Below are positions 41,787-64,000 of a stretch of DNA of 64,000 nt, piece after piece; the first letter of the stretch is position 1, and each line of letters opens with the position of its first letter. The position numbers and the translations under genes are program-made. The notes below the pieces were generated by a model. It was not told the DNA's origin and ran no database searches. It was given only the letters and a program-made list of their open reading frames with translations. This stretch comes from Pyropia yezoensis (Eukaryota > Rhodophyta > Bangiophyceae > Bangiales > Bangiaceae): positions 6,810,375 to 6,874,374 of the forward strand of contig CM020619.1 in NCBI GenBank assembly GCA_009829735.1. The letters are read 5' to 3'.

Positions 41787-42149
41787 TGTAGCAATATGGT
41801 TGGCCGTATTGTGACCCTAATATTAGGGGGGCTACTTCTAATCCTTGGCTTTCAATTTGATAGTCCGTACTGGTCACGGTATCTATAAGTTATGTATGAC
41901 CAGAGGGACTTGCATCTTGGGGTGGAGGGTAGTTAGTAGTGTCTCCGAGGGTTTATAACGTGGGGGCCGGCGACGAATCCACCGCCGGCCAAGGCAGAAC
42001 AACAAACCCCTCCCATTTGGGCTCCCATCTTGGTCCCGTGGCTTGCGCTCCAAGGACAGCAACCTTGGCCTCCCGGTGACGTTGGTGTCGATCCCCCTTG
42101 GTGAGTGTTCCCTGAGAGTGGACGTGCGACGGATTCCTATTGTGCTACA
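41787..42149 (+). repeat. 5' LTR of family 1 (363 bp)
   Basis: TGTAGC…GCTACA, with TG/CA ends. It contains a TTTATAAC promoter-like site near 41951. Matches 52353-52715 closely. Confidence 0.92.
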
Positions 42150-42374
42150 TAGGTGGAGCAGCAGGGGACGGGTTTCCGTCACCCGTGTGGTGACGCCGTC
42201 TTCGGCCCTGGCACACGGATAGGGATCCGGTCCTTTTCTTGTACTCGTGGTGTTGCGATCTGATCGATTGTGTTGAGTTTCTTCCTTTGACTGTGATCTA
42301 CTGTTACTCTCCCCAATCTACCCCCTCGCTCTCTTATTCGTGGTGATAGTTACGTCGGTTGACTGATTGTGACT

Positions 42375-44557
42375 ATGTCTACCCAAGAGACGGGGAACGT
42401 TCAAGATGACGGATCGGCGTCGACGCCGACTCCGGAGGTGACTACGGGAACCGGAATCGGGAACCCGATCGACAACATTGAGACGCCAATGCTTTCCGGT
42501 GCCGGATCGACGTTTGGCACGGCTCGGACGGCAGGAGGCGGGGGCCCGCCTCATCTGTCATCGACCGACCTCACTCCGCCGCCTCCTTCACCAGGGGATT
42601 CCCTCATGGCATCATTGGCCCGCATCGAGGCCCGGTTTTCCGGACTCGACGCTCGTCAAGAGCGGACGGAGGACGCAATGGCAGTGCTGATGTCAACACG
42701 CCACACGACGGGACGCCGTCGTGTTCCTCCCACACCGGTACGGCTTGAACCGGCCGGACTACTTTCGGAGTCCACCGGGGTCGACCCCGGCGCAGCAACT
42801 CCCGGACAGCCCCCGGACACAATGGGGTATGGATCCGACTCGTCGGCAGAGTTGGAACGGAGTCACACGGAGCGATACACTCGGAGCACCCGAAGCGGAC
42901 TCCGCAGACACGACCCGGCGGATACTTACGCCGGTGGAGAGTCGGTTATTGGGGGAGGGGGTACCCTCTCACAGTACCCCCACGACGAAGGAGGCCAGGC
43001 AACTCGGGTTCCTGAGGTGCCGACGCCCGAAGTACCATCTTCAGTGGTGGAAGCCATGACCGCGCAGGTAACTGCGAGCCTACTGAAGCGGATGAAGTCC
43101 GATGAGTTTGCTCATCAACTGGCTAAGCGACTGGATATCCAGGACGCTGACACGGAGATCGTCAACGAGGTCTTCCGGTCGGTTCTTACTCCGGAACGTT
43201 ATCGCTTGGAGGACCGTTCTACCACCGTATCGGAGTCGATGCGCAATACGTCGCATCGGGCGATCCGCTCTATGCAGACCCTTATGAAGGGAGTCCCTAT
43301 GTTCGGGGGGCCGAACGGACGCCCGTTGGCAGTCATCGGCTTCTTGACTAGCGTCAAGGCAGCCGCGGACAAGGCCCTCGTTAACGAGGGGCTGGCCCTG
43401 GAGATCCTCCCGTTCTTTGTTGATGAACGGGTGCGAGGCATCCTTCGCCAGGCATCCCCGATGCCGGGAATGAGGGTTGCGGCCACCCCCATGGATTACC
43501 GTGGGATTCTCATGGAGCTGCTGAGCAGTTACCTCAGTGAGGACAAGTGCGAGGACCACTACCGGGCCCTGTGCACTGCCACCGCCCAGAGCTGGGAGGA
43601 TGAGGAGATGTTCGGACGACGGATTCAAGAGCTCGACTACGAGCTGGGGAAGCTCCTCGGAGAAGGGGAGCTACGGGCCATCCTGTTCGCAGGAGTACCC
43701 AACTACGTGCGGATATCCGCACGGGGCGCCAACACGGCACGGACGAACTTCAGTCGACTGATGCATATGTGCAAGTCCCTGAGGGAAGCCTACCGGGTGC
43801 TTCACCCGGAGTGTGCTCTTGCCTCAAAGCCCAAGGGTGAGGGGAGCAAGCTCAATCTTACCCCGGTACCGAGGCAAGACAAGATGGAACGGAAGGCCGC
43901 ACCGGTACTGGTGGCTACCGATTACGCCCCCACGGGCGAGGAGGAACCACTGGTTGACCAGCAGGGCCACCTGCTGTTACCGGCTACGCCGGTGATCGAT
44001 GAGCAAGGTACGGTAGCGTACATCGCTCCGGCGGGGACCCAGTTCCAGGTCAGCGAGGGCACGGGACGTCGCGTCCCGTACGTACGGACTACGGGGTACT
44101 CCCCGGTGACGGGTAACCCTCACCAACCCTTGCCAACATGGGCGGTGCGCACGGAGGCACCTCGCAGATCGCGGGCCGACCCAACCGGTTGGGGGAGTCC
44201 ATGTTCCGGTTGACCCAAGGACCCAAGGCCTACCAGGGAGCAGGCACTCGGGCGCCCGAGGAAGGCAACCGCAGCTACGGGGCTACCCCGATGCGAACTC
44301 AAGTGGGGACCGGCACGTCCGGATGTATGTTGTGTGGGGATCCCCAGCACTGGGTGTCTTCCTGCCCACTCATCCCCGAGGAGTCTCGGCGGGCAGCGGC
44401 GCAACGCAAGGCATCCACGGGGGGGTATCCCGCCAGAGCACCCGGACCCGCACCGGGTAGGCAGCCAGCTCCAGGTGGAGTACTGGCCGTCGAGGAGGCA
44501 CCTCCTCAGCCGGATGTCCCGGCGGACAGCACCCTACCAAGGGCGGGAAACGAGTAA
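42375..44557 (+). pseudogene. gag: Family-1 Gag with zinc knuckle, one frameshift
   Basis: From the ATG at 42375 the main frame runs to 44213 and codes a Ser/Thr-rich N-terminus, a helical middle (VTASLLKRMKSDEFAHQLAK) and a capsid-like segment (ILMELLSSYLSEDKCEDHYR, EMFGRRIQELDYELGKLL, LRAILFAGVPNYVR) typical of Ty3 Gag proteins. The CX2CX4HX4C knuckle CMLCGDPQHWVSSC lies in a different frame that ends at 44557, so an indel near 44190 separates capsid and nucleocapsid in this copy. It would package the element RNA. Confidence 0.72.
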
Positions 44558-44595: not shown

Positions 44596-47500
44596 ATGCC
44601 ACCCCGGAGTACCGCGGGGAAAGCCCCACGGCGAGCGCGTTTGAGCCGGCGCCGCATCAGTCCCCGGGTACACCTTCCGGCCCCGACGACACGGAGTCAG
44701 GGGAATGATGAGAATCCCCCGATACCGGGAGGCGAGGACGGGATGCCCCGTCACGTTGAACCAGCCAAGGGCCCTGTCCAGGATGCCCGAGGAACACCGG
44801 ATATCGGTGTGGGACATGTGCTGTTTACCTTGGAGAACTTCAAGGTATCAGCCACACTGGGGGTTCACCCCCAGTCGACACGATCGTACTACCCTGTACT
44901 GGATACAGGGGCTGGACCCAACCTTATCCGGAAGGACACCCTCCCGGACAAGTGGCTTCCGCGAGTCAGAGTGACTCGGGGACCCACCATCAAGGACGCG
45001 AATGGTCGCCTCATTCGTACGACCGCAGCGATGTCGCTGCGGGTTACCATCGGGGAACTCACCACGGAAGTCGACTTCCTGGTGTGTGAGACCCTATCGG
45101 TGCCCTGCATATTGGGATGCACCTTCATCAACGTTCACGTGGATGCAATCCGGCCAGGCCGGAGGACCGTCGAGCTTCAAGAAGCCGACGGGACGAAGCG
45201 AGGACACACGGCTATCGTCAGGGACCTGACGCTACAAGGGAGCCACGTTAACGTGGCTGAGGTGTACGCAAGCGTCGAGCCGAAGACACTTCGGTTGGCC
45301 AAGCGAACTCGCTTTGAGCCGTTGTCGGAGGCAGTCCTCCCGGTTAACTGCGACCTCGCAGGCATCTGCAGAGTCCGGTCCAACCTGCGGACATACAAGC
45401 GCCATGGGTTGACCATGGCCAACGGTCTCATAGACCTCCCAGCAGGAGGGTCGTCCCTCCTAGTGATGGCGAACTATCGCCGTAAGGCAGTCACCCTCCC
45501 GAAGGGAACTATCCTCGGGATTGCCGAGCTCTACGAAGGAGATATCCTTACCCCTGACAAGGAAGGTCAAGTGGAACCACTTGAGGTGCTGGCGGCCGCC
45601 GAGACCACCGAGCGACAGCAACCCGATGACGGGAAGCCTAACCCATCGGCGCCTTCGGCGGACATGCCGGCAAAGGTTCAAGAAGCACTGAAGGCCCTGG
45701 CCGAGGCTGACCTCGACCACCTTCCCCCTTCGGTAGCCGAAGGGGTACGACGGATGCTAAGAAAGCATGACGTCATGTGGACAGGCGGGGCCTTGGGTAC
45801 CATTGGGGCAACCCAACATCGTATAGACCTGGTACCAGGCGCACGCCCCGCCCGGTCACAACCGCACCGAGCGGGACCTATGCAACGAGAGATCGTTGAT
45901 GGAGGAGAAGTGAAGAGGATGAGCGAAGCGAAGGTGATACGACCTTCGATGTCAGAGTGGGGTGCCCCAGTCGTTATCGTACCGAAGAAGGATCAAACCC
46001 CTCGGTTTTGCATCGATTATCGACGCCTCAACTTGGTTACCAAGAAAGACTCATACCCTTTACCAAGGATGGATGAATGCATCGACTCCCTGGGGGAAGC
46101 TACGGTGTTTACCACCATCGACTGCAATGCCGGATACTGGCAGATCCCAGTGGCGGACGAGGATATCCCCAAGACGGCGTTCGTCTGTCACAGTGGAGTG
46201 TACGAGTTCCTAAGGATGCCCTTCGGATTGTCCAACGCCCCCGCTACATTCCAGCGGGCTATCGACATTATACTGTCGGGGGTGAAGTGGCGTAACTGCC
46301 TAGTGTACCTCGATGACGTTATCGTCTTCTCGCGTAACATGGATGACCATGTGCAACATGTTGACGAGGTACTCACCCTCTTGCGGAACGCCGGGGTAAC
46401 CCTGCGTCTGAAGAAGTGCGCCTTCTTCCAACAGACGGTCGAGTATCTGGGCCACCAGATAACCCCTGGTAAACTAGGGGTACTCGAAGCCAATACCCGG
46501 GCACTCCGGGATGCCCGGTTCCCTAACACCCAGACACAGCTCAAGAGCTTCCTGGGAATGTGCAACGTATACCGACGGTTCGTCAAGGACTTCGCTCGGA
46601 TAGCTAAACCGTTAACGGCTCTTACGAGCAGTACCTTGCCCAAGGTACTCCAAACCCCTTCGCCTAGCGAAGAGGAGGCATTCGAGTCGCTGAAGCGAGC
46701 CCTACTATCCCCACCCGTCCTTGCGTTACCGCACAGACGGGGTACCTTCGTCATCGATGTCGATGCGTGCGACACCCAAGTGGGATGCACCCTGTTACAG
46801 GGAGAGACGTTGATCGGTTCCGATAACGTTATCCCGGACCTACGTCCGGTAGGGTACTTCAGCCGGACACTCAACCCGGCTGAGCGTAACTATAGTGCCA
46901 CCGAGCGTGAGTGCCTCGGAGTCATATGGGCTGTGCAACTGCTCCGTCCATACCTGGAGGGCTCCAGGTTCACCGTGAGGTCCGACCACGAACCCCTACG
47001 ATGGCTCCTCAACCTTGGTGACAAGGATTCCGATAACCATGGGAGGCTAGCCCGATGGAGGCTGAAGATGGCCGAGCACGACTACCGCACCGTGTATAAG
47101 GCTGGGTCAACCCACCACCTCGGAGACGCGTTGCCTCGACTCGACACCCCGAGCGGGGATACCCGCCCGGTGGACGAGGACATCCCGGTGGTACCGGTCT
47201 GCGTGGTGGGTAACGCCACCCAAGGTATGGTTGACCATACCATGGCACACCGAGCATGCCCACTGACCCTCGCGGACTTCCGCGAGGCACAGGCCAATGA
47301 CGACGACTGTAGACGTCATCGCGCTAACCTCCTGGCCGGTACGGCCGGCATCTTCTCCGAGAATGAAGACGGACTCATATATCGGCGGGCACTCGCCGAT
47401 GGACGACATCAAGTCGTGGTTCCCGTGTCCTTACGGCAAGCCGTCATGGAACGAGAACACGAGAACCCTACAGCCGGACACCCGGGGGGTTCACGTATGT

Positions 47501-48465
47501 TTGCAGCAATGCGAAGGTTCTTCTACTGGCCAGCAATGGCCGTCGACGTGGTCGACCACGTAAGGGGATGCCACCCCTGCGCACGGAATCGAATGAGTCT
47601 TCATAGGCGGGCATCCGCTGTGAAACTGTTCCCCCCGGATGGACCCAACGAGCAAGTCGCTATCGACATACTCGGACCGCTTCCGGTAACGGAAGAAGCG
47701 AACAGGTACATCCTGGTCATGTCGGACCGCTTTACTAAGCTGTCACGGGCAGTAGCAATCCCGGACGATACGGCCTACACCATCATGAACGCAGTGGCTG
47801 ACCACTGGATCAGTGCTTACGGAGTAATGAAGCAACTCCTCTCCGATAACGGAGCAAACCTTACGTCAGCATTCTGCACTAAGGTCCTGGGCATGTTCGG
47901 TATCGAACCCCGTCGGGCATCCGACTACCACCCGCAGTCCAACGGGCAAGTGGAGCGATTCAACCGCACCATCGTCAAGATGCTCCAATGCTACGTGGCC
48001 GAGCACACGAACACTTGGGACAGGCTTCTGTCCGTACTTACCCTGGCATACAATGCCAGGCCACATCGGAGCACAAACATCGCCCCACTGGAGTGGGTCA
48101 TGCCACTAGGGGTCGGTAACCTGACACTGCCACCCGGCAGGTGCACGCGGTATGATACACCGAAGGGCCGACCGGCCGAACGCATCCACCTAGCTTGGTT
48201 GGCCAAGCTATCGTGGATGATTCCTAAGCTCAAGGGTGCCCTTGACAGAACACAACTTCGAAACAAGAAGAACTTCGACGCCCGACTACGGGTGCGCAAC
48301 GCTACCCTGATGACAGGTGACTGGGTCTACATCAGACACCAGAAGTTCCGAGGGAACAAGCTTATGCAACCGGTCAAGGAACCGTACCAGATCTTACACA
48401 GAGATGATCACTCTGTCATACTGCACTCCGATACGGAGAACAACGCATCAACCTCAACGATGTGA
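44596..48465 (+). CDS. pol: Family-1 Pol: protease, RT, RNase H, integrase
   Basis: 1289-codon ORF in Ty3/gypsy order. Protease: VLDTGAGPNLIR. RT: FCIDYRRLNLVTKKDSYPLP, FTTIDCNAGYWQ, MPFGLSNAPATFQR and the catalytic YLDD in LVYLDDVIVFSRN. RNase H: FVIDVDACDTQVG, YSATERECLGVIWA, FTVRSDHEPLRWLL. Integrase: HHCC zinc site (HENPTAGHPGG…CHPCARN), then D in VAIDILGPL, D in LLSDNGANLTS and E in NGQVERFNR. The frame closes at 48465 just before the chromodomain because of a one-base deletion near 48440: the inverted copy reads through the same place. The protein is otherwise intact from protease to integrase. No ATG is needed at the beginning if translated as a fusion with Gag. Confidence 0.92.
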   Translation: MPPRSTAGKAPRRARLSRRRISPRVHLPAPTTRSQGNDENPPIPGGEDGMPRHVEPAKGPVQDARGTPDIGVGHVLFTLENFKVSATLGVHPQSTRSYYPVLDTGAGPNLIRKDTLPDKWLPRVRVTRGPTIKDANGRLIRTTAAMSLRVTIGELTTEVDFLVCETLSVPCILGCTFINVHVDAIRPGRRTVELQEADGTKRGHTAIVRDLTLQGSHVNVAEVYASVEPKTLRLAKRTRFEPLSEAVLPVNCDLAGICRVRSNLRTYKRHGLTMANGLIDLPAGGSSLLVMANYRRKAVTLPKGTILGIAELYEGDILTPDKEGQVEPLEVLAAAETTERQQPDDGKPNPSAPSADMPAKVQEALKALAEADLDHLPPSVAEGVRRMLRKHDVMWTGGALGTIGATQHRIDLVPGARPARSQPHRAGPMQREIVDGGEVKRMSEAKVIRPSMSEWGAPVVIVPKKDQTPRFCIDYRRLNLVTKKDSYPLPRMDECIDSLGEATVFTTIDCNAGYWQIPVADEDIPKTAFVCHSGVYEFLRMPFGLSNAPATFQRAIDIILSGVKWRNCLVYLDDVIVFSRNMDDHVQHVDEVLTLLRNAGVTLRLKKCAFFQQTVEYLGHQITPGKLGVLEANTRALRDARFPNTQTQLKSFLGMCNVYRRFVKDFARIAKPLTALTSSTLPKVLQTPSPSEEEAFESLKRALLSPPVLALPHRRGTFVIDVDACDTQVGCTLLQGETLIGSDNVIPDLRPVGYFSRTLNPAERNYSATERECLGVIWAVQLLRPYLEGSRFTVRSDHEPLRWLLNLGDKDSDNHGRLARWRLKMAEHDYRTVYKAGSTHHLGDALPRLDTPSGDTRPVDEDIPVVPVCVVGNATQGMVDHTMAHRACPLTLADFREAQANDDDCRRHRANLLAGTAGIFSENEDGLIYRRALADGRHQVVVPVSLRQAVMEREHENPTAGHPGGSRMFAAMRRFFYWPAMAVDVVDHVRGCHPCARNRMSLHRRASAVKLFPPDGPNEQVAIDILGPLPVTEEANRYILVMSDRFTKLSRAVAIPDDTAYTIMNAVADHWISAYGVMKQLLSDNGANLTSAFCTKVLGMFGIEPRRASDYHPQSNGQVERFNRTIVKMLQCYVAEHTNTWDRLLSVLTLAYNARPHRSTNIAPLEWVMPLGVGNLTLPPGRCTRYDTPKGRPAERIHLAWLAKLSWMIPKLKGALDRTQLRNKKNFDARLRVRNATLMTGDWVYIRHQKFRGNKLMQPVKEPYQILHRDDHSVILHSDTENNASTSTM

Positions 48466-49184: not shown

Positions 49185-51767
49185 TCAGTGGGTAGACCCA
49201 CTGCCCGAGGGAGGCCACTCACGCGTAAGCGCGTATACTTCCGTGCTCCACCGGTCGGCTATCTCACGACGGTCAATCACCCGAGTTACCTCGGTGCATA
49301 GCTGGACGAGGGTGCTGCGGCCAGCCTCCACGTCCTCCAGAGCTGTCTGGAGGCGGTCAAGCACACCACCGAAGCAACGCGCTGACCCAACCAGCGCAGC
49401 ACCTGGGGGGATATCCCCCCAGCTAACAGAGAGACCCTCCCGCATTGCGCGGGCAACAAGGGCGTCAACGCCCTCATACCAGACACGGGGACCCCCGTCA
49501 TGCATGACAGGGGCGGGAGGTGACACTGGCGCAGCCAGAGGAGCCACAGGAGCCGACACGGCCACCACCGGAGCCGGTGGCGCCTGATATGAGGCCCGGT
49601 AGGACCCCACAGAAGGGGCTCCACCGTAACCCCGGCGGGGCTCCGCCCGACGACGGGACATCTCACGCTCCCCACCCGCAGAGCCCCACTCTTGGGGACG
49701 GTGGCCAACCGCCGCCGGTGTCGCGTTACCGAACCACGGGGCAAGGACCTGAAGAGGGTCATGGATAACCATGGGAATACCCAGGTCAGCAACAGCCTCG
49801 GTGGACGCCCACCCATGGCAACTGGGCTCACCCGGCTGAGTACGCCGGATACGCAACGAGTGACGAGGCAAGGGAGCAGCCCCAGCCTGCGGGTCCCGGT
49901 ACGGGGGAAGGGCCAACACCCCAGCCCAGTTCACGGCATCGTGAACAGCCAGCAGGGCCTCGAACTCCCGGGCCAACCCGGTCTTGGCGGCTATCAGGTC
50001 CACGCCCAACTGCGCGATGTGCCGACGGACACCCGTCGGAAGATGAAACAGGCGCCCCTGCCGGCGGACGGACAGCAAGAAGGAGGAAGCCTGCCCGAGG
50101 GTAACCTCAAGGGTGAAGGTACCCTGCAACGGGTGGACCGGCCGGGAGGCCAACACACTCCCGAAGTATCGGAGACAGGAGCCGGTGTCAAACCGGAAAG
50201 CAGGGGCGGGTTCCCACCCCTCCTGCCACAGAGGCGGGCGCACGGGAGTGTATACCGGCGCACGACCGTTGCCGGTCTGCAACGCACACGTTATATCGGT
50301 GCGGAACGCATCGGCCATGACACCATGGTTACGTCGCCAGCTCGACGCCGACTTCAAACCCGCCATAGGCGGGTAGGGAGCCGTCAACGACAGATACGGG
50401 GATACCCCCGTGTAATAATCAAAGTCGGGATACCGACCGGTATCACCCACCGTCTCCCCAAACGCAACCGGCTCCGCCGCCGCCGCAATCCTGTAGCACA
50501 ATAGGAATCCGTCGCACGTCCACTCTCAGGGAATACTCTCCAAGGGGGATCGGCACCAACGTCACCGGGAGGCCAAGGTTGCTGTCCTTGGAGCACAAGC
50601 CACGGGACCAAGATGGGAGCCCAAATGGGAGGGGTTTGTTGTTCTGCCTTGGCCGGCGGTGGATTCGCCGCCGGCCCCAACGGGCTCCGCCGCCGCCGCA
50701 ATCCCCCGTGCACTAGCCGGGTAGTCAACCTCCCGCGGCAACGCGGGAGCAATCAGGTCGCATACCCCGAAGGCGGGGTCGAGGTAGACCTCACCCCGTC
50801 CCACCCGGGTGCGCCAGAGCTGCGCATGCCGGTCGTCCGGCTGACTCAGGATCCAATGGTGTTCCACCCGCACCGCGTTCGGCTGGTTGACCAGCCGCAC
50901 CAACTCCCGCTCCCAACTCGGGTCCACCTTGACGCGCCGGGAGGACTCTCCACGGGGATGGGGCAGGTGGAAGTCCACCCGCATCCGCCCATTGGACTCC
51001 ATTGACTCTTGCACAGTCAGGCCGCGAACCCGAGCCACCAAGTCGGACATCGACATGGCGGGTTGACCCGCCGCCACGGCGACGCCGCCACCCAACGGGG
51101 CAACCCGGGCAGGACCAGGAAGAATCGGGGGCGCCGGGGGAAGCCCCACCGGCAGATGGACCGGTGCCGGAGGTGCACGGGGCCGAGGAGGAAGAAGAAG
51201 GGCGGGCGCCCGCCCGGAGTAACTAGCGGAGTCCACTGCCATCGGTGTAGACCCACCTTGACCACCAGACGCCCGCGGCACCGCGGGCAGAGCAACGCCG
51301 CCACCCGAGCCCGACGGGGGCACCTCGGGGGCAGCAGGGGTAGACCCGTCACCCGCAGCCGCGGATGAACCACCCGGGCGGGCACCCGCGCCGTCTTGAC
51401 CCGCCGTCTCGGTCGGGGTGCCACCATAACCGCCCGACACGCCGGCAACGCCGTCTTGAGGTAGAGCCGCGCCGGCACCGGCGACAGGAGCCATCCGGGC
51501 CGCCGGAGGAGTAGGGGTAGACGCAGCAGCTACCCGCGGTTGCCCGCCACCCGACGGAGCCGTCGTGCCGCTGCACACGGACGACAAACCGCCCGGAGCA
51601 CCGTCCGGAGCCACGCGAACGGTCACCCGGTCGCCCTCGTCTTCGGACGAGCTCGCCAAGAAACACTCGGCGGCAGTGGCAGAGACGGGAACGTCGTCCA
51701 CCATCACCTCCCCCTCCTCCTCAAGCAGGAGGTCGTCCTCACCCCCGGGTACCTCGGGGTCCGACAT
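49185..51767 (-). CDS. Family-1 antisense ORF (unknown protein), interrupted by an LTR fragment
   Basis: Starts at the ATG at 51767 (MSDPEVPGGEDD) and would code about 789 aa without the interruption. N-terminal third: acidic then Pro/Gly/Ala-rich; then a folded-looking segment (MRVDFHLPHPRGESSRRVKV, SWERELVRLVNQPNAVRVEH), the region around MADAFRTDITCALQTGNGRA and IAAKTGLAREFEALLAVHDA, a second Pro-rich stretch, and a helical C-terminus (FGGVLDRLQTALEDVEAGRS, VTRVIDRREIADRWSTEVYA). It lies opposite to pol, between pol and the 3' LTR. A 213-bp insertion (187-bp LTR fragment plus duplicated flank) keeps the frame but adds a stop at 50562-50564. The same kind of ORF occurs at the same place in the second family (59192-61311). 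No catalytic motif or known domain is recognised. Other gypsy elements carry antisense ORFs, but I cannot link this one to them. Confidence 0.7.
50492..50678 (-). repeat. Antisense 187-bp LTR fragment inside the extra ORF
   Basis: Reverse complement of the 3' half of the family-1 LTR, ending exactly at the LTR terminus (TGTAGC on the plus strand at 50492). It is flanked by a 22-bp direct repeat (GGCTCCGCCGCCGCCGCAAT plus CC) at 50470-50491 and 50683-50704. Confidence 0.88.
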
Positions 51768-52337
51768 GGTGCAACCGGGGTAGCAGGGGCGCCCCGTGCA
51801 GAAAAGCCGAGGCCGGCTCGACCCGGTACAGAGAACGCTCGCACGGACGAGCCAGGGAAGCGCGGGCACCCGCGCTTATAACCACACAGTTCAGCACGAG
51901 CGATACGGCAGCGCGGGACGCCCCGCGCCAGCCGGGCTACGAGGGCGCTCCACCCAGGCACCTGGACTGGAGCCACGCCCCCTCCACACGGGGTAACCAG
52001 GGGGGTCACCCCCAACCGCTCCCACGCAACGCGGGCAACCCCGCCACCCACTCAATCGTCTCACGAGAGGGGCTCCCCTACCACCAGACACCTGGTGGCG
52101 GATCCGCTTGCACACCCCTCGGAAAGGGGGGTCGTGAACAGAAACCCGCATCGGGAAATTAACGGTCCGGAAAACGGATCGTGTGTGTACCACACAAAGG
52201 GGGGCACCCCCCTCAGGCAACCTCGAAAAGGGGTGTCTGTCGCGACAGGGCGCAAAGCCCCACCCGACTGGTTAACGGTCACGCGACCCACTTACATTCG
52301 GTAACCCGAATGCAACTCGACCCGAGGACGGGCCGAA
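51768..52337. other. Region between the antisense ORF start and the polypurine tract
   Basis: About 570 bp; must contain any promoter for the antisense ORF. Several short inverted and CG-rich words (GGGGTGTC, AACCCGAATG) but no ORF of note. Confidence 0.45.
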
Positions 52338-52352
52338 TCTAAGGGGGCGATA
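52338..52352 (+). promoter_or_regulatory. Polypurine tract before the 3' LTR
   Basis: TCTAAGGGGGCGATA directly precedes the LTR start TGTAGC at 52353. A purine run at this place primes plus-strand DNA synthesis in LTR retrotransposons and shows that this LTR is the 3' one of the left element. Confidence 0.65.
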
Positions 52353-52715
52353 TGTAGCAATATGGTTGGCCGTATTGTGACCCTAATATCAGGGGGGCTA
52401 CTTCTAATCCTTGGCTTTCAATTTGAGAGTCCGTACTGGTCACGGTATCTACAAGCTACGTATGACCAGAGGGACTTGCATCTTGGGGTGGAGGGTAGTT
52501 AGTAGTGTCTCCGAGGGTTTATAACCAGGGGGCCGGCGGCGAATCCACCGCTGGCCAAGGCAGAACAACAAACCCCTCCCATTTGGGCTCCCATCTTGGT
52601 CCCGTGGCTTGTGCTCCAAGGACAGCAACCTTGGCCTCCCGGTGACGTTGGTGCCGATCCCCCTTGGTGAGTATTCCCTGAGAGTGGACGTGCGACGGAT
52701 TCCTATTGTGCTACA
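52353..52715 (+). repeat. 3' LTR of family 1 (363 bp)
   Basis: TGTAGC…GCTACA; close match to 41787-42149. It is followed directly by GGATTGCGGCGG, the same junction that follows the antisense LTR fragment at 50492 when read on the minus strand. Confidence 0.92.
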
Positions 52716-54022
52716 GGATTGCGGCGGCGGCGGAGCCGGTTGCGTTTGGGGAGACGGTGGGTGATACCGGTCGGTATCCCGACTTTGATTATTACACGGG
52801 GGTATCCCCGTATCTGTCGTTGACGGCTACCTACCCGCCTATGGCGGGTTTGAAGTCGGCGTCGAGCTGGCGACGTAACCATGGTGTCATGGCCGATGCG
52901 TTCCGCACCGATATAACGTGTGCGTTGCAGACCGGCAACGGTCGTGCGCCGGTATACACTCCCGTGCGCCCGCCTCTGTGGCAGGAGGGGTGGGAACCCG
53001 CCCCTGCTTTCCGGTTTGACACCGGCTCCTGTCTCCGATACTTCGGGAGTGTGTTGGCCTCCCGGCCGGTCCACCCGTTGCAGGGTACCTTCACCCTTGA
53101 GGTTACCCTCGGGCAGGCTTCCTCCTTCTTGCTGTCCGTCCGCCGGCAGGGGCGCCTGTTTCATCTTCCGACGGGTGTCCGTCGGCACATCGCGCAGTTG
53201 GGCGTGGACCTGATAGCCGCCAAGACCGGGTTGGCCCGGGAGTTCGAGGCCCTGCTGGCTGTTCACGATGCCGTGAACTGGGCTGGGGTGTTGGCCCTTC
53301 CCCCGTACCGGGACCCGCAGGCTGGGGCTGCTCCCTTGCCTCGTCACTCGTTGCGTATCCGGCGTACTCAGCCGGGTGAGCCCAGTTGCCATGGGTGGGC
53401 GTCCACCGAGGCTGTTGCTGACCTGGGTATTCCCATGGTTATCCATGACCCTCTTCAGGTCCTTGCCCCGTGGTTCGGTAACGCGATACCGGCGGCGGTT
53501 GGCCACCGTCCCCGAGAGTGGGGCTCTGCGGGTGGGGAGCGTGAGATGTCCCGTCGTCGGGCGGAGCCCCGCCGGGGTTACGGTGGAGCCCCTTCTGTGG
53601 GGTCCTACCGGGCCTCATATCAGGCGCCACCGGCTCCGGTGGTGGCCGTGTCGGCTCCTGTGGCTCCTCTGGCTGCGCCAGTGTCACCTCCCGCCCCTGT
53701 CATGCATGACGGGGGTCCCCGTGTCTGGTATGAGGGCGTTGACGCCCTTGTTGCCCGCGCAATGCGGGAGGGTCTCTCTGATAGCTGGGGGGATATCCCC
53801 CCAGGTGCTGCGCTGGTTGGGTCAGCGCGTTGCTTCGGTGGTGTGCTTGACCGCCTCCAGACAGCTCTGGAGGACGTGGAGGCTGGCCGCAGCACCCTCG
53901 TTCAGCTATGCACCGAGGTAACTCGGGTGATTGACCGTCGTGAGATAGCCGACCGGTGGAGCACGGAGGTATACGCGTTTACGCGTGAGTGGCCTCCCTC
54001 GGGCAGTGGGTCTACCCACTGA
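52716..54022 (+). pseudogene. Inverted copy of the C-terminal half of the antisense ORF
   Basis: Codes nearly the same residues as 49185-50491, with a few substitutions (for example LTAPYPP to LTATYPP, SVSWGD to SDSWGD, REWPP context ALTR to AFTR). It begins immediately at the LTR end with no ATG, so the N-terminal half is missing. The intact frame suggests recent duplication. Confidence 0.75.
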
Positions 54023-54535
54023 GAAGTGTTATTGTTTGTACGGGAGAGGGACCCGGTGGCCCTTATGGTGGCTGGGTAGTAGTGAGTCTAAACTCATCCC
54101 TTTCGGGGGCATTGCTTGCCTCTGTTTGTTGCCCTGGGGAGTACCCCTTCTGGCTCAGTGGTGCCTTGCCTCCCGTCCAAGTTCTTCCGGTTGGTTCATG
54201 CTTGGGGAGGTCATCCTCCCTCACTATGTGTCTTGGCTGGGGGAGGTCATCCTCCCTTGTAAGCCCCCTAGTTACTTCGATATTATCGGAGTTAGCCTTT
54301 ACCTTTAAGGCAACTTATTAAGGTTCAGGTTTTGTTTAGTTACCTAAGCTTGGCTGGACTTAGTTGCCTAAGCTTCGTTGGCTTAGAAACCTAAGTCTGA
54401 TTTGACTTAGAAACCTAAGTCTGATTTGACTTGGAAACCTAAGTCTGCCGTAACCATGTGACACCCTACTTAGTAGGTATAAGCCTCACCCCCCAACAGC
54501 CGAAGTCGGTGTCGGTTGGGTTGTTACAGTAGGCG
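54023..54535. other. Convergent spacer in the inverted copy
   Basis: Homologue of 48735-49184. Contains three copies of a 24-bp unit at 54382-54447 and a duplicated GGGGAGGTCATCCTCCCT word near 54210 and 54241, each a small palindrome. Confidence 0.6.
54382..54447. repeat. 24-bp tandem repeat, almost three copies
   Basis: Unit CTTAGAAACCTAAGTCTGAT plus TTGA, at 54382, 54406 and 54430 (third copy with one change). Each unit holds ACTTAG/CTAAGT arms that can form a hairpin. Confidence 0.8.
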
Positions 54536-57500
54536 TCATCGCCTCATGTAAGGCATGAGGAGTTGGCGGGGTATATTTGCCGCCTGTTCCCAGGTGGGTG
54601 AGTCGTATCCGACCCACATAACCTTGACGTACCAGGGTCCTGGTAGGTCCGGGTCGGTGTGTCCGACCACGCTCTCTACTTGGTATGGAATCCCATCCGG
54701 TCCCACCGGGTCCTCTGACCGGCGGGTTGTAAGAGCTTCATGTAGCAACTCAGCCGGTACCGGCTGAGGCTGTTCCGGCTTCGGAGCAAGTGTGATATCA
54801 TTCACACTGATGCGTTGGATCTCCGTATCGGAGTGTAAGATGACAGAGTGGTCATCTCTGTGGAGAAATTGGTACGGTCCCTTGACCGGTTGCATGAGCT
54901 TGTTCCCCCGGAACTTCTGGTGTCTGATGTAGACCCAGTCACCTGTCAACAGGGTAGCGTTGCGCACCCGTAGCCGGGTGTGAAAGTTCTTCTTGTATCG
55001 AAGTTGTGTTCTGTCAAGGGCACCCTTGAGCTTCGGTATCATCCATGATAGCTTGGACAACCAAGCTAGGTGTATACGTTCGGCCGGTCGGCCTTTCGGT
55101 GTATCATACCGCGTGCACCTGCCGGGTGGCAGTGTCAGGTTACCGACCCCTAGTGGCATGACCCACTCCAGTGGAGCGATATTCGTGCTCCGATGTGGCC
55201 TGGCATTGTATGCTAGGGTGAGTACGGACAGAAGCCTGTCCCAAGCGTTCGTGTGCTCGGCCACGTAGCACTGTAGCATCTTGACGATAGTGCGGTTGAA
55301 CCGCTCCACCTGCCCGTTGGTTTGCTGGTGGTAGTCGGATGCTCGACGTGGTTCGATGCCGAACATGCCCAGGACCTTAGTGCAGAATGCTGACGTAAGG
55401 TTTGCTCCGTTGTCGGAGAGGAGTTGCTTCATGACTCCGTATGCACTGATCCAGTGGTCAACCACTGCGTTCATGATCGTGTATGCCGTATCATTCGGGA
55501 TGGCTGCCGCTCTTGACAGCTTAGTAAAAGCGGTCCGACATGACCAGGATGTACCTGTTCCCTTCTTCCGTTATCGGAAGTGGCCCGAGTATGTCGATAG
55601 CGACTTGCTCGTTGGGCCCATCAGGTGGGAACAGTTTCATGGCAGACGCCTGCCTATGTAGACTCATGCGGTGACGTGCACAGGGGTGGCATCCCCTTAC
55701 GTGGTCGACCACGTCGACGGCCATTGCTGGCCAGTAGAAGAACCTTCGCATTGCTGCGAACATACGTGAACCCCCCGGGTGTCCGGCTGTGGGGTTCTCG
55801 TGTTCTCGTTCCATGACGGCTTGCCGTAAGGACACGGGAACCACGACTTGATGTCGTCCATCGGCGAGTGCCCGCCGATATATGAGTCCGTCTTCATTCT
55901 CGGAGAAGATGCCGGCCGTACCGGCCAGGAGGTTAGCGCGATGACGTCTACAGTCGTCGTCATTGGCCTGTGCCTCGCGGAAGTCCGCGAGGGTCAGTGG
56001 GCATGCTCGGTGTGCCATGGTATGGTCAACCATACCTTGGGTAGCGTTACCGACCATGCACACCGGTACCACCGGGATGTCCTCGTCCACCGGGCGGGTA
56101 TCCCCGCTCGGGGTGTCGAGTCGAGGCAACGCGTCTCCGAGGTGGTGGGTTGACCCAGCCTTATACACGGTGCGGTAGTCGTGCTCGGCCATCTTCAGCC
56201 TCCATCGGGCTAGCCTCCCATGGTTATCGGAATCCTTGTCACCAAGGTTGAGGAGCCATCGTAGGGGTTCGTGGTCGGACCTCACGATGAACCTGGAGCC
56301 CTCCAGGTATGGACGGAGCAGTTGCACTGCCCATATGACTCCGAGGCACTCACGCTCGGTGGCACTATAGTTACGCTCAGCCGGGTCGAGTGTCCGGCTG
56401 AAGTACCCTACCGGACGTAGGTCCGGGATGACGTTATCGGAACCGATCAACGTCTCTCCCTGTAACAGGGTGCATCCCACTTGTGTATCGCACGCATCGA
56501 CATCGATGACGAAGGTACCCCGTCTGTGCGGTAACGCAAGGACGGGTGGGGATAGTAGGGCTCGCTTCAGCGACTCGAATGCCTCCTCTTCGCTTGGCGA
56601 AGGGGTTTGGAGTACCTTGGGCAGGGTACTACTCGTAAGAACCGTTAACGGTCTAGCTATCTAAGCGAAGTCCTTGACGAACCGTCGGTATACGTTGCAC
56701 ATTCCCAGGAAGCTCTTGAGCTGTGTCTGGGTGTTAGGGAACCGGGCATCCCGGAGTGCCCGGGTATTGGCTTCGAGTACCCCTAGTTTACCAGGGGTTA
56801 TCTGGTGGCCCAGATACTCGACCGTCTGTTGGAAGAAGGCGCACTTCTTCAGACGCAGGGTTACCCCGGCGTTCCGCAAGAGGGTGAGTACCTCGTCAAC
56901 ATGTTGCACATGGTCATCCATGTTACGCGAGAAGACGATAACGTCATCGAGGTACACTAGGCAGTTACGCCACTTCACCCCCGACAGTATAATGTCGATA
57001 GCCCGCTGGAATGTAGCGGGGGCGTTGGACAATCCGAAGGGCATCCTTAGGAACTCGTACACTCCACTGTGACAGACGAACGCCGTCTTGGGGATATCCT
57101 CGTCCGCCACTGGGATCTGCCAGTATCCGGCATTGCAGTCGATGGTGGTAAACACCGTAGCTTCCCCCAGGGAGTCGATGCATTCATCCATCCTTGGTAA
57201 AGGGTATGAGTCTTTCTTGGTAACCAAGTTGAGGCGTCGATAATCGATGCAAAACCGAGGGGTTTGATCCTTCTTCGGTACGATAACGACTGGGGCACCC
57301 CACTCTGACATCGAAGGTCGTATCACCTTCGCTTCGCTCATCCTCTTCACTTCTCCTCCATCAACGATCTCTCGTTGCATAGGTCCCGCTCGGTGCGGTT
57401 GTGACCGGGCGGGGCGTGCGCCTGGTACCAGGTCTATACGATGTTGGGTTGCCCCAATGGTACCCAAGGCCCCGCCTGTCCACATGACGTCATGCTTTCT

Positions 57501-58433
57501 TAGCATCCGTCGTACCCCTTCGGCTACCGAAGGGGGAAGGTGGTCGAGGTCAGCCTCGGCCAGGGCCTTCAGTGCTTCTTGAACCTTTGCCGGCATGTCC
57601 GCCGAAGGCGCCGATGGGTTAGGCTTCCCGTCATCGGGTTGCTGTCGCTCGGTGGTCTCGGCGGCCGCCAGCACCTCAAGTGGTTCCACTTGACCTTCCT
57701 TGTCAGGGGTAAGGATATCTCCTTCGTAGAGCTCGGGAATCCCGAGGATAGTTCCCTTCGGGAGGGTGACTGCCTTACGGCGATAGTTCGCCATCACTAG
57801 GAGGGACGACCCTCCTGCTGGGAGGTCTATGAGACCGTTGGCCATGGTCAACCCATGGCGCTTGTACGTCCGCAGGTTGGACCGGACTCTGCAGATGCCT
57901 GCGAGGTCGCAGTTAACCGGGAGGACTGTCTCCGACAACGGCTCAAAGCGAGTTCGCTTGGCCAACCGAAGTGTCTTCGGCTCGACGCTTGCGTACACCT
58001 CAGCCACGTTAACGTGGCTCCCTTGTAGCTTCAGGTCCCTGACGATAGCCGTGTGTCCTCGCTTCGTCCCGTCGGCTTCTTGCAGCTCGACGGTCCTCCG
58101 GCCCGGCCGGATTGCATCAACGTGAACGTTGATGAAGGTGCATCCCAATATGCAGGGCACCGATAGGGTCTCACACACCAGGAAGTCGACTTCCGTGGTG
58201 AGTTCCCCGATGGTAACCCGCAGCGACATCGCTGCGGTCGTACGAATGAGGCGACCATTCGCGTCCTTGATGGTGGGTCCCCGAGTCACTCTGACTCGCG
58301 GAAGCCACTTCTCCGGGAGGGTGTCATTCCGGATAAGATTGGGTCCAGCCCCTGTATCCAGTACAGGGTAGTACGATCGTGTCGACTGGGGGTCAACCCC
58401 CAGTGTAGCTGATACCTTGAAGTTCTCCAAGGT
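54536..58433 (-). pseudogene. Inverted copy of family-1 pol, with one nonsense codon and one frameshift
   Basis: Protease and RT are read from about 58433 to 56664, where CGG of the other copy has become TAG (56661-56663). The same frame continues through RNase H and the integrase zinc site to 55521. An extra A near 55527 (TAAAAGCGG against TAAAGCGG) shifts the frame; the rest of integrase is read from 55474 and here joins the chromodomain without a break (SDTEIQRISVNDITLAPKPE), ending at 54536. Gag and the beginning of pol are missing; similarity to the full element stops at 58433. Confidence 0.88.
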
Positions 58434-59191
58434 GAGTGTGGTATAAAACTCGATCCTTTCAGACACGTGTCAATATCCCTCGGGGGAAAGGGACAGGTAA
58501 CACAGAAAGGGGAACTACGAGAATGGTATGCCTGTTGCCTCACGTGCCTGCTCGCAGAGCAAACAGATACGCACGGTAGTGCACACGGGGAAGAGGAAAG
58601 CAAACGCGCAGTTGTCTTTTTCCTGAGGGCGCGGGCCAAGGGCGCCTCGCTGTCCCTCTTAACGTGCATCTGGGGGAGCCTCGGCACGTTGGCCAGGTAG
58701 CCCCCCCATAACCCCGAGTGGCCCCGACCCGAGTCTAACCTCGTCAGGTCGGGGGCCACTATCACTACTAATTCTATTCCCACTCACTAATCTCACACTC
58801 AAATTCTCTCAAATCAAGTCCCTCACAAGTATGCAAAAACCCATCAGCAATCCCTCTCTCACGTATGGATAGCGTAGTCCACCGCATCCCAGTGCCGGGC
58901 ACGGGCCACGGCCGCCAACCATCACCACACGGCGGGCGTGTTCTGGCACCTGGTGCCCTCTGGTTGTAGTCCCGGGTCGGCGCCAAGTCGGGGCCAGGGA
59001 TGCTACATAGCTCCCTCCCTAGTCCGGCACGTCCTCGGGCCGAACCAGGTGCCACCGTGCACAGCCTCGAGCACGTCCACACCGTTGCCGAGGTCGAGCG
59101 TCTTCACCCTGGTCACGATCACCTGCTCCGGTTCTCTGCCCCCCTTCTCTCCTTCACCTTGGCCCTCGCGTTCCCCCGGAGTCTGGACGTC
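58434..59191. other. Junction region upstream of the second family's extra ORF
   Basis: Unrelated to family 1. Contains TATAAAA at 58442-58448 on the plus strand. It probably includes the 3' LTR of the minus-strand family-2 element and the promoter of its antisense ORF, but the partner LTR is outside the window, so limits cannot be set. Confidence 0.4.
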
Positions 59192-61311
59192 ATGTCCAGT
59201 TCCGAGATCCAAGCTGGGCCCGTGGTTCCGGCGGCGAGTGTTGCGGAGGAGAACTCGGGTAGTCGCGCCCCTCTCCTGCCTCCGGTTCCTCGGGTGTCGA
59301 TGTCGGCGCCGGTCGCCACGGCGGGGACGGATCGGGTTCCCCCGGCTTCTGTGATGCACCCGGTCGAGACCCCCCCGGTGGGTCTCCCGGAGATGCTTCT
59401 TGGGCAGGACCCTCTGGCGGCCCGGCGTTACTCCACGGTGGTCGGCAACGCCGGCGCGGCCCAGTGCCAGCAGGATTGCTTGGACCTCTGGCGCAAGGAA
59501 CTCCAGCGCGGGGTCTTGACAGAGATGGATAAGGCTCGTCTTCACACGGCGGACCAGATGCGCCTGGCACAAGACCGTTCCCAGAGCTTCTCGGGTTCCT
59601 CCTGGGTTGCTCGTCTGGAGGATCTCCCCTTCGCGCTGGTGCTGGATCTGCCCTTGACCGAGCGTCGCGTGTCCGCGTCCGTTCTCCGGTGGCCGGAGGA
59701 GGAAGGGTACGTCCACCGGGCGCTCAAGGTCTGGGACGAGGCGCTCAAGGGGTCGGGGAGCCTGAACTGCGACCCCCGTCCGAGCATGGTCGCTCTGGAG
59801 CCGCCTTTCCTGACCCGGAAGTACTCCAAGTTGTCACCGGCACGGGAGCAAGGCGAGCGACGCGGCCGCCAGCGTGACTTCCTCGTGAGCTGCAACCATC
59901 AGGAGTTCTGGAAGCTGGATAAGGCTAACCGGGCGGCGTACTACCCCAAGGTCATCCCGCAGCAGCAGGAAGTCGAGATCCCGGTCTTGTTTGCTCCTTC
60001 CAGCATCCCCTTCGCCTGGTACTTCTTGGACGCCTTGACTCAGGCGTCGATCAAGGGCTTCTCCCACTCGATCCCGTACATGATGTACACGTCCGAGATG
60101 ACAGTCTTGGCGGCCAACCACTGGCTTCACGAGGTCTTGGTGTCCAACCGGCTTTGGTTTCTCCCTGACCTCCTGATGGTCTGGATTGTCGACAAGTTGA
60201 CCGTCGACTTCCTGTGCAGCCAGGACGAAGATACAAGGGGCTCTTCCAGGCGATGATTGACTTCCGGCGTCTGGTGCCGGTGCATGACCGGAACTTCTTG
60301 AACGCGATTGCCGACCAGAACCGCCCGCGTCGGGATGGCTTCGGTTGGGCGCAGGTGGTCTACCAGTTTTCTCCGGCCAAGGTGCAGCTGGCGACGCCGC
60401 TTCCGGCGTGGCCGCAGCTAGGTAGCTTTCCTGCCCCGGCCGCCCTTGATCTTCTGCCAGTTGGGCCGCCGGTGCAGGAGTCGGGATGGGCCGCGGCGGT
60501 CGGTCAGGCGTCTGCGGCGGCTCCGCTTCCTCCTGTTGCACCTGTCGCCCCGGTGGCCTCGCCTGAACCGTCGCCGGCGCGTTCACGCCCTGTTCCGGCT
60601 GTGCCGGTACTTCAAGCTCCTCCGGCACCGCGCCTGTCTGCGGCGAGTCTGGGGGTGACCGTGCGGTCGCCTACCACTCCGGCCGCTCCGCCTCGGACGC
60701 CTTCTTCCAACGCCGGCGGCGCTGTGCCTCCGCTGGAGTTGGGTACTCCGGCTTCGGGGGCCGTTGTGGACCGTCCGGTGGTGTCATCCTCTGGGCGGTT
60801 CGAGAATCCGGCGCCGACTCTGCGCCTTACCCGCTTCCAGGTGCCTGACTGGTACCAGATCCAAGGTGGTCCGACATGCGACCAGTACGACGTCGGTATG
60901 ATTGAAGACCAGCTGGGTCGTCTTCCGGTGCAGGTTGAAGGCGTTGGGTCCTCCCTTGTGCTGGGTACTTACGCCAGCGTCTTGAACAACGTGGTCGACC
61001 GGGTGTTTGCTTGCGCGGACAGCGGCCAGATGTCGAACAGCCCGGTGGTTGGCGAACTTCTGGCGACATTGACGCGGCATGGCTTGGCCCAGCAGTGGTC
61101 AGAAACCATCACTGGCTTCCAGGGGCGCCGACGGGCATATCTGGATGAGCGGGAGCCCCCGGCAACTACCGGTACTACTCCGATGGCGTCATACCGGGAT
61201 GCACCGCGTCCACCGCACTACGTCATCCCGTCTTACTCCGGTTCCCGTCGTGCCGCGGAGGCAGCGCTGGAGGACACTCCCGCGGCTCAGCGTCCGCGCC
61301 GGGAGAAGTAG
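59192..61311 (+). CDS. Family-2 antisense ORF (unknown protein), one frameshift
   Basis: From the ATG at 59192 (MSSSEIQAGPVVPAAS) to 61311, about 706 codons, with a frame change near 60235 (…DFLCSQDE then GLFQAMIDFRRLVPVHDRNF). Layout parallels the family-1 ORF: Pro/Ser-rich N-terminus, a segment with FALVLDLPLTERRVSASVLR, a hydrophobic helical middle (FAWYFLDALTQASIKGFSHS, LVSNRLWFLPDLLMVWIVDK), a long Pro/Ala-rich linker (about 60400-60800), and a C-terminal helical part (LGTYASVLNNVVDRVFACAD, LLATLTRHGLAQQWSETITG) ending in a basic RPRREK. The WSETI/WSTEV ends and the preceding VVDRV/VLDRL helix look alike in the two families. Function unknown; no enzyme motif seen. It lies between pol and the presumed 3' LTR, opposite in direction to pol. 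Confidence 0.65.
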
Positions 61312-61453: not shown

Positions 61454-64000
61454 TCAATCCTCTTGTTCCGCATCCGTTGCGGATGAACTCGGCTCGTCCC
61501 GAGGGTCTTGGTTGGCCCCATCCTCTTGGTCCTCCTCCGAGTCCGACTCCAGAATCTTGCCGGCTCTGGCCACTGGAGTGCCCTCTATCCCGTTCCGTCG
61601 CGTGTAGGCACAGACATCCGCGATGGGTAGCCGGTTTGAGGGTTCCCAGGTATCATCTGCCGGGTTAAAACCGAACCAGCGTACTCGCAGGTACAGGCGG
61701 CCGTCTCTCCAGGCATGGTCCACAAACTTGACGTAGACATATTCCCGACCTTCTTCTTGGGATGGCCAGGGTACTGCGGCCCGCTTGCGCCGGGTCAAGT
61801 CCCGTTGGCTTGGCGGTGGAGCTCGGGTGACATGGTCGCTGCTCACGCGGTACGGGGAGCCATCCACGTCTAGAAGAAAGGTCCAACCGTCCGTATTCAG
61901 GATCTCATAAGGTCCATCCGTCTTCGAGTCCAGCTTCCCCCGGGTCTTGCTATGGTTGTCCACAAAAACCCAGTCGCCACCACCCAGTTCCTTGTTCTTT
62001 TCCCGAACGCCCTTATCATAGCCCCGCTTGTATCGCTCCTGGGTCTTCGAGATTGACTCCTTGACTCTTGGGAGCAGGAGCTTCAGTTGTTCCAGGAACT
62101 CATCCTTTGCCTTGGGACCTGACTTCAGTGCAGGCAGGAGACCGTCTGGTATTCTTTCCAGAAAGAAGTTGGTCAGCCGCCTTGGGGTGACAAAGTCGAG
62201 TGGAGCGACCCCCGTTGTCCGGTGAACTCGGGAGTTTTAGGCTAGAGTGAGGACAGCCAGGAGCTCGTCCCAGTCTTCTTGGTGCTCCTCCACGTAGTGC
62301 CGTAGCATGTCTACTAGGGTCCGGTTGAATCGTTCCACCTGACCGTTCGTTTGAGGGTGGTACGTCGTAGTGTACAAGTTCTTGATGCCCATCAGGTCAC
62401 AGACTCCTTAGAAGAACAGGGATGCAAACTGGGGACCGTTGTCGGTTAAGACGGAGTCTGGAGGGCCATAGGCAGCTATCCAGTATTCGCAGAAGGCTGA
62501 CGTGACATCCAGAGCCGTGATGATCCTCAGCGGGATTGCTCGAGTGAACTTGGAGAACCGGTCACATATGATGAGCAGCTATATGTTGCCACTGGATGTT
62601 TCAGGTAGGGGCCCCAGGATGTCCATGCTTAAGCTTGCAAAGGGCTCCGCCGCAGGGAATAGGCGTAGCTTAGAAGTCTTCTTCCTCTGGGACAACCGGT
62701 TCCTTGCACACGAGACACAAGCCTCCAGGTACTTATGGACGTCACTGGCCATGGTTTCCCAGTAATAGTGTCGTCTCATGGAAGCATACATCCGATTGAT
62801 ACCAGGATGTCCGGCCTGGGGAGACGAGTGCTCCAGGCGTAGGATGTCAGCTCGTAGGCCCCGGGGTACGTAGACTTGAGTGGCCCCATCGAAGGGTGAC
62901 ACCCGTACTAGGAGTCTGTCCGTAGACTCGGAGAAACGACTGTTCCGGTTCAGGTCCATTTGGTGGCGAAGCTCCAAGCATTGAGGATCCGTCAGTTGTG
63001 CCTCCAGCATCCGGTGAATGGTCACCGGTTGATGAGCTTCAGGTGTCTCATACAGGGGAGCGTGCCAGCCACGTCCGACATTCGGGAGGATGAAGCAAGG
63101 TATTTCCTCCGGGATAGGACCGGTATCGGCTGCAGGAGTCTCCAGCCGGGACATGGTGTCGGCGCAGTGGTGCTCCCTCCCTGCTCTGGTGCACACCTTG
63201 TACTTGAACTCCGAAAGGCGTAGGCGCCACCGGGCGACCCTTCCTTGACTGCTGTCCATACATAGCAGCCACCTTAGGCTGGCGTCGTCCGTCCGGATGA
63301 GGAACTCTTGTCCTTCAAGATATGGCCGTAACAGGAAGCAAGCCCAGACGACTGCCAAGAACTCGTGCTCGGTCGTGGAATAGTTCTTCTCAGCTGGAGT
63401 CAAGACGCGACTGTAGGAGCCTATCGGGAGAAAGTGCCCATCAGGTTGCTGCTGGAGTAGTGAGCACCCCACCTGGACGCCACAGGCATCCGTCTCCAGA
63501 ACAAACTGGCCCTCCCGCTTGGGTAACGCCAGTACTGGAGTGGTGGTCAGGCGCTTCTTGAGCTCTTCGAAGGCCGCGGTCTGCTTCTCGTCGAACACCG
63601 GGAGTTGTGCGGGAAGCTTCTTGCTGGTCAGCTTGGTCAGTGGCCGGGCAATCAGAGCATAGTCCCGTACGAACCGGCGATAGAAGTTGCACATACCCAG
63701 GAAGCTCTTGAGTTCCGTCTGGGTTTTGGGTTGCCGTGCATGCCGGAGGGCCTTGATGTTCTTCTCATTGACTCGGAGCTCCCCGGGACTCAGCACATGC
63801 CCCAAATACTCCACCTCAGTCTCAAACAGGTGGCACTTCTCGGCCTTGAGGGTAACTCCAGCCTTGGACAGGAGGGCCAGGACCTCCCGAAGGTGCTCCA
63901 GGTGTTCCGCTGGGGTCTTGGAGAAAACGATAATGTCATCCAGGTAGACCAAACATGTTCTCCACCTTAGCCCGGACAGGATGATGTCGATGGCTCTTTG
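61454..64000 (-). pseudogene. pol: Family-2 Pol: RT (part), RNase H, integrase, chromodomain; three nonsense codons
   Basis: One frame runs from the window edge to 61454. RT: MVYLDDIIVFSKTPAEHL, YLGHVLSPGELRV, LKSFLGMCNFYRRFVRDYAL. RNase H: FVLETDACGVQVGCSLLQQQ, YSTTEHEFLAVVWACFLLRP, FLIRTDDASLRWLL. Integrase: zinc site (HSSPQAGHPGINR…CVSCARNRLS), D in LSMDILGPLPE, D in SVLTDNGPQFAS, E in NGQVERFNR. Chromodomain: YVKFVDHAWRDGRLYLRVRW and FGFNPADDTWEPSNRLP. Stops at 62581-62579 (TAG), 62410-62408 (TAA) and 62239-62237 (TAA) are in frame, with conserved sequence on both sides; the first and last stand where Tyr is expected. The rest of RT, protease and gag lie outside the window. Confidence 0.88.

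Follow-up and report, generated by a model that had tools for sequence, protein, structure and literature searches.

Several plant long terminal repeat (LTR) retrotransposons are described as carrying an antisense open reading frame (ORF) between pol and the 3' LTR, termed aORF-3R, as in gene23 of Grande, RIRE2, ORF4 of Retand and PvRetro13, and Boty represents the fungi (PMC7264820). Some of the plant products are reported to be nuclear, and others are suspected of having DNA-binding domains; it has been proposed that they regulate the element much as accessory proteins do in retroviruses (PMC7264820, PMC11963269), and the roles of these genes behind pol are reported as not yet determined (PMC7264820). 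In the present study, we analysed the antisense ORFs (hereafter aORFs) carried by gypsy elements in a 64,000-nucleotide stretch of contig CM020619.1 of the red alga Pyropia yezoensis (the window), and searched the genome for their relatives (107.5 Mb, 11 contigs). The initial annotation of the window had noted a long ORF opposite pol and before the 3' LTR in two gypsy families, here families 1 and 2 with aORF1 and aORF2, and had named plant elements as a precedent, which the literature bears out (PMC7264820).

Like the members of the aORF-3R class, the ORFs found here run antisense to gag-pol, lie between pol and the 3' LTR (a position established for families 1 and 2), occur in most copies (family 2 and aORF4/5) and are conserved at the protein level. 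They differ from the plant cases in their red algal host, in belonging to gypsy elements with weak chromodomain-like tails and in having none of the plant aORF domains that we could find; moreover, this one genome has three or more groups of aORF proteins that do not resemble each other, and cassette exchange is seen here. The TRP28/Transposase_28 (PF04195) ORFs of Retand are alike in place, in strand, in the long region from pol to the 3' LTR and in their suggested role as nucleic-acid-binding regulators, whereas Retand is, in the account consulted, a non-chromovirus (PMC11963269). In our scans PF04195 was absent among the Pfam matches at E<=1 of aORF1, aORF4, aORF5 and the pieces of the window aORF2, the model being assumed to be in the library. 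Another likeness is found in the LTR retrotransposons of bdelloid rotifers, whose varied ORF3s are described as gained modularly and shared between elements; among those ORF3s are enzymes that have been identified and one env, in contrast to the aORFs studied here, which are antisense, probably soluble and of no recognised kind (PMC5408684). Described members of the class come from plants and fungi; in the literature searched, we met neither these proteins nor the allele swapping in a red alga.

Both copies in the window are broken, yet comparison with other copies makes it almost certain that the aORF is a genuine protein-coding gene under purifying selection. Four subtypes of aORF1 were distinguished (1a, 1b, 1c and 1d, with protein identities to 1a of about 97, 82, 61-65 and 47%), and in 11 between-subtype pairs the ratio of replacing to silent substitution rates (dN/dS, or omega; Nei-Gojobori) was 0.30-0.39, with changes at third codon positions about twice as frequent as at first and second positions. 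Residues 301-540 were the tightest, with omega 0.09-0.25 in two 1a-1c pairs and up to 0.59 in one segment of a 1d pair, and the core of aORF5 gave 0.12-0.19 in three pairs. For aORF2, a copy selected through its integrase differed from four aligned rows, of which L012 and L037 are one copy, by 35-44 silent and 16-17 replacing changes (346 versus 917 sites; omega 0.14-0.18). Among 12 distinct family-2 copies, with duplicates counted once (L012=L037, L010=L038, L019=L039), the variants common to at least two copies comprised 43 silent and 11 replacing changes, and the singletons 56 silent and 43 replacing. Function at the protein level, as first surmised from the retention of the ORF, is thus upheld: in aORF1 (between subtypes), in aORF2 and in aORF5 alike, dN/dS stays far under 1.

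The length of an ORF was given no weight, because long chance frames are common in DNA as GC-rich as this (66% guanine plus cytosine, with 124 ORFs of at least 150 amino acids in the 64 kb). That abundance, together with the broken state of both window copies, is what speaks for taking the aORFs as chance frames, or as by-products of some other constraint, and not as genes at all. We hold this to be highly improbable and, indeed, already refuted: in a six-frame control the aORF frame alone was stop-free, and had the lowest omega, in all five aORF comparisons; the shared variants of family 2 show the silent excess of 43:11, which the copy selected through pol shows too, with 16 replacing to 40 silent changes; and the aORF does not overlap pol in the window elements or in the fetched loci. 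The second-lowest omega in that control fell in the antisense frame with the same wobble position, and pol behaves alike. Base composition by codon position ranks similarly in aORF, gag and pol.

The genome-wide survey agrees in placement. Internal stops were met in 9 of 96 family-1 copies (87/96 stop-free over about 434 matched residues) and in 13 of 112 family-2 copies (99/112 stop-free), rates that are flattering, since the scored copies were the best-scoring of longer candidate lists. In family 1 the open frames met most often were of 825 and 909 codons, and in family 2 of 779 codons. The aORF converged with pol in 20/20 ten-kb loci (L021-L040) that had been chosen by their aORF match, and family-1 copies were sampled through the aORF only. 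The expectation that most copies possess the ORF was sustained: aORF2 stands directly behind pol on the opposite strand at no fewer than 92 of 147 family-2 integrase ends, and on the same strand at none among the matches listed, while the remaining 55 ends are 24 plus 31 copies of identical score that lie outside the 112 aORF2 matches listed. Locus L047, picked from those 31, has an open aORF2 that is 96% identical. For aORF4/5, 17 of 27 reverse transcriptase (RT) hits (profile range 1-205) had the ORF convergent at 3.6-4.8 kb from the RT and none had it on the same strand; two further pairings belong to a neighbouring tandem element. All 31 of these family-2 copies agree in integrase score and identity (570.4 bits, 96%), a sign that a single lineage may have multiplied recently.

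The recurrence of this convergent layout in the loci examined also favours a different view, namely that the antisense transcript itself matters, forming double-stranded RNA with the 3' end of the genomic RNA and so tuning silencing, with the protein secondary. Such transcripts are described as able to act in this way (PMC7264820). Selection on the amino-acid sequence, however, is left unexplained by an RNA role alone, which we regard as quite unlikely; a protein role and an RNA role may coexist.

In family 1, the aORF has very probably been exchanged between elements as a cassette, judging from the alignments. Overall, 1a and 1c are about 95% identical before the aORF, 72% across it and 90% after it. 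More finely, L033 (1a) matches the 1c copies L028 and L026 at 95-100% until about 180 bases before the aORF, at 89-90% over the next 100 bases, at 62-86% over the aORF, and again at 85-97% from about 150-250 bases past its end, the identity of L033 and L028 through pol being mostly 0.90-0.98. The cassette edges, as aligned, lie close to the ORF ends; pol stays nearly unchanged, and so does the LTR-side leader in most of the copies compared. In L032 and L031, both of subtype 1c, less of that leader is shared (0.46-0.57 just upstream in L032, 0.86-0.90 in L031). The silent divergence (dS) in three 1a-1c pairs was 0.67-0.76 in the aORF versus 0.11-0.24 in pol, which points to a different history and not to selection on the protein. 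Subtype 1d shows no such conflict, its dS being high in both the aORF (about 1.3-1.5) and pol (1.15-1.3).

Subtype 1b, to judge from its identity profile, is a recombinant within the aORF: the N part of L036 resembles 1c (0.88-0.97) and the remainder 1a (0.90-0.98), the switch lying near reference position 2800-3000, and the first ~100 bases past the aORF resemble 1c again (0.98). Tree tests rejected 1a plus 1b as a group for the N part of the aORF (p 0.004) and 1b plus 1c for its core and C-terminus (p 4e-5). In the pol tree, 1a and 1b fall among the 1c copies. We infer that the exchange is most simply explained by template switching as the elements are reverse-transcribed. That the aORF is the part exchanged suggests that it is the part meeting something variable.

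The aORF is present in families 1, 2 and 4 and in the aORF5 elements of this genome. Family 4 and a family 3 were taken from the RT match list and the region behind their pol was examined. In family 4 (L042) an antisense frame of 995 codons was found, whose core as a query matched 56 places in the genome, 6 at 90-100% identity and the others, the aORF5 group, at 24-35%. The aORF5 proteins share about 28% identity with the family-4 aORF and differ in distance from the RT (3.65 versus 4.80 kb); by profile similarity, the two form one family (hmmsearch 8.5e-19, best decoy 0.71). Beyond this genome, a search of 5.8 billion proteins, with about 8000 candidates scored per query, returned for aORF1 three hypothetical proteins of Pyropia vietnamensis (45-59% identity) plus two further close sequences, and for aORF2 one match, 98% identical. 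Relatives of aORF5 were met in P. vietnamensis at 41 and 52% identity, and the joint aORF4/5 profile matched 17 proteins, from P. vietnamensis and other public assemblies; by these matches, another Pyropia species has members of aORF families 1 and 5 as well.

Chromo matches at the integrase C-terminus fell below the curated cut-off in family 1 (0.075, in a sister copy), family 2 (2e-4) and family 4 (2.5e-4). The family-3 match (L041:1-504, + strand) is clear at 1.1e-15, and family 3 forms a natural comparison group. In the pol of family 4 (L042:2-1189, + strand), the chromodomain-like stretch is followed by a Dam N6-adenine methyltransferase match (PF05869, 1.5e-7), a tail that is to our knowledge unusual for a gypsy polyprotein.

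With respect to kinship, the initial annotation had described a common order of segments in the two window proteins. The Pro-rich linker occurs in both families, and a C-terminal domain of about 60 residues is probably shared; the acidic start is strong only in family 1 (net charge of the first 60 residues -15, against -2 in family 2). The score of the aORF1 and aORF2 C-terminal domains was reached by 0/150 shuffles, with pairwise support in 2/4 sequences, while that of the cores was reached by 23/150, and full-length hidden Markov models of the two proteins gave no similarity above decoys. A common origin of the two families' proteins is accordingly supported in part, by the C-terminal residues, which beat the decoys, and not by the core or the whole length. 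Family 4 has a linker rich in Arg/Ser and RGG whose charge is strongly basic, reaching up to +20 per 60 residues; the two family-5 proteins P0010 and P0013 reach +13 and +5 over the same length. An AlphaFold2 model of P0010 predicts, fairly confidently, a helical core at about 30-198 and, at low confidence, C-terminal helices at 513-536 and 541-570.

The first reading had recognised no protein family, and this stands: none of the Pfam, NCBIfam and PHROG families was matched by the aORF proteins. A comparison with the PDB gave no credible sequence match, and a second look there no clear fold. No membrane segment was detected in six aORF proteins, their best 19-residue Kyte-Doolittle means being 1.21-1.54; this lack of a hydrophobic stretch (even the highest mean is 1.54), along with the antisense orientation, renders an Env-like or membrane protein extremely improbable. 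The aORF1, aORF2 and aORF4/5 proteins are so unlike one another that more than one capture is conceivable, and the aORF could accordingly be a captured host or viral gene, or a mobile-element remnant, that keeps its old activity; yet, in addition to the empty domain and structure searches, no viral-contig relatives of aORF1, aORF2 or P0010 were found, and we judge such an origin rather unlikely. A somewhat better case, still an unlikely one, can be made for a maturation factor, or for a partner in the structure of the particle that would be either a second protein of the Gag kind or one associated with the nucleocapsid. The helical core, Pro-rich linker and C-terminal hairpin have the general outline of assembly proteins, and the aORF diverges faster than pol; against this, a separate gag-like ORF is present, the aORFs have no Gag-type Pfam match and no clear PDB fold, and antisense expression would uncouple the protein from Gag. 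An assembly partner and the antisense-RNA role are the main rivals to a regulator.

Taken as a whole, a selected, exchangeable antisense gene encoding an accessory regulator is the best explanation we can offer, one that falls a little short of even confidence. The messenger RNA would start from a predicted antisense promoter that lies within or next to the 3' LTR. The product would be soluble, with an N-terminal part of low complexity, then a helical core, a linker rich in Pro or in Arg/Ser and, at the C-terminus, a helical hairpin. It may act in trans in the nucleus, either on RNA of its own element or on the preintegration complex, and swapping would let an element alter the interaction of this protein with its replication machinery unchanged. 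That the protein is specifically an RNA- or DNA-binding regulator, by analogy with the plant cases, is a more tentative suggestion. More doubtful again is the idea of a swappable specificity module whose target differs between sister elements or hosts, be it RNA of the element itself, a factor of silencing or restriction, or a rival element; old alleles would then be kept and reshuffled onto near-identical pol backbones, like a retrotransposon immunity or self-recognition locus.

Several observations weigh against the accessory-regulator account or its parts. In six close within-subtype pairs the omega of aORF1 rises to 0.30-0.75, as expected of copies that die, and most copies (11/12 in family 2, L047 being the exception) were found via the aORF protein score, which favours intact ones. 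The one copy of family 3 (L041) has no long antisense frame, with fewer than 900 bases from the pol end to the next gag-like ORF and thus no room for an aORF, so not every gypsy element here needs one. Furthermore, a single 1c clade in the pol tree was not rejected (p 0.138). As to nucleic-acid binding, a basic linker is lacking in family 2 and slight in family 1 (+6) and in P0013 (+5), and no domain match in the scans named above points to such binding.

The features of the window are collected in Table 1. The position opposite pol and before the 3' LTR was confirmed in both families by the frames, by the LTR at 52353-52715 and by the edge near 58437. Of the two ORFs first reported, the starts at 51767 and 59192 are the methionines of the proteins; neither window copy, however, is one continuous ORF. 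In element A (family 1) the open frame holding the N-terminal part of aORF1 spans 51875-50562 (437 codons, - strand), and the inverted LTR fragment inside aORF1 is missing from the intact copies L004 and L006. In the family-2 element, aORF2 consists of overlapping frames at 58970-60256 and 60169-61311, the phase changing between 60169 and 60256. The pol of element A matches Pfam RVT_1, RT_RNaseH, Integrase_H2C2, rve and gag-asp_proteas, its gag-like ORF had no Pfam Gag match, and the pol end of the family-2 sister copy L012 matches rve (5.6e-12) and Chromo (2e-4). Homology with three family-2 copies starts at 58437, and an LTR repeat lies on the far side in 2/4 sister copies.

Table 1. Features of the family-1 elements A and B and of the family-2 element, in window coordinates
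Feature	Position	Strand	Remarks
5' LTR, element A (family 1)	41787..42149	+	TGTAGCA...TGCTACA; 96.7% to 52353-52715 by blastn self-comparison; edges within a few bases
gag-like ORF, element A	42369..44213	+	open frame; named from its place 5' of pol
pol, element A	44596..48465	+	protease, RT, RNase H, integrase, chromodomain-like tail
aORF1 C-terminal frame	49185..50525	-	446 codons; holds the greater part of the conserved core, the Pro-rich linker and the C-terminal domain
Inverted LTR fragment inside aORF1, element A	50492..50682	-	96.9% to 41959-42149; carries two stops
aORF1 N-terminal frame	50562..51767	-	begins with methionine 51767; acidic at first, with a region rich in Pro, Ala and Gly and the start of the core
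3' LTR, element A	52353..52715	+	blastn self-comparison
aORF1 C-terminal part, element B (second, inverted, N-truncated family-1 copy)	52682..54022	+	98.8% to 49107-50678; open frame
pol, element B	54436..58433	-	split into several frames; 96.9% to 44827-48823
Left edge and leader of family-2 element, upstream of aORF2	58437..59191	+	edge is the outer end of the 3' LTR
aORF2 N-terminal frame	59192..60256	+	from methionine 59192; single frame in intact copies, e.g. L012
aORF2 C-terminal frame	60214..61311	+	different phase; Pro-rich linker, C-terminal domain
Family-2 pol end	61454..62236	-	integrase C-terminal part, chromodomain-like; convergent with aORF2

Element B spans 52682-58433 and adjoins element A, with the family-2 element next; its frame at 52682-54022 opens within the LTR, and the aORF sequence starts directly after. 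Element B begins right where the 3' LTR of element A ends, and an LTR/aORF junction is common to element B and the inner LTR fragment of element A (50462-50692, 52690-52740), which reflects either a nested history or an assembly effect. Two family-2 copies are lodged in family-1 pol about 60 base pairs apart (window 58148-58437; L037:558-785), and this may mark a hotspot for insertion or a nested insertion that was copied. A run of 359 N lies at window 20189-20547.

For the biology of these elements, several unlike gypsy lineages in a compact genome keep an antisense gene under clear protein-level selection, and the natural swaps of aORF alleles point to an interaction module. Full-length complementary DNA has been sequenced for P. 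yezoensis, which is farmed as a seaweed (PMC7423979), and the transcription of the aORF is therefore directly testable. Additionally, LTR elements are reported to dominate the repeats of this species (PMC7423979), so that, if the aORF protein does regulate its element, the finding would bear on the growth of the genome.

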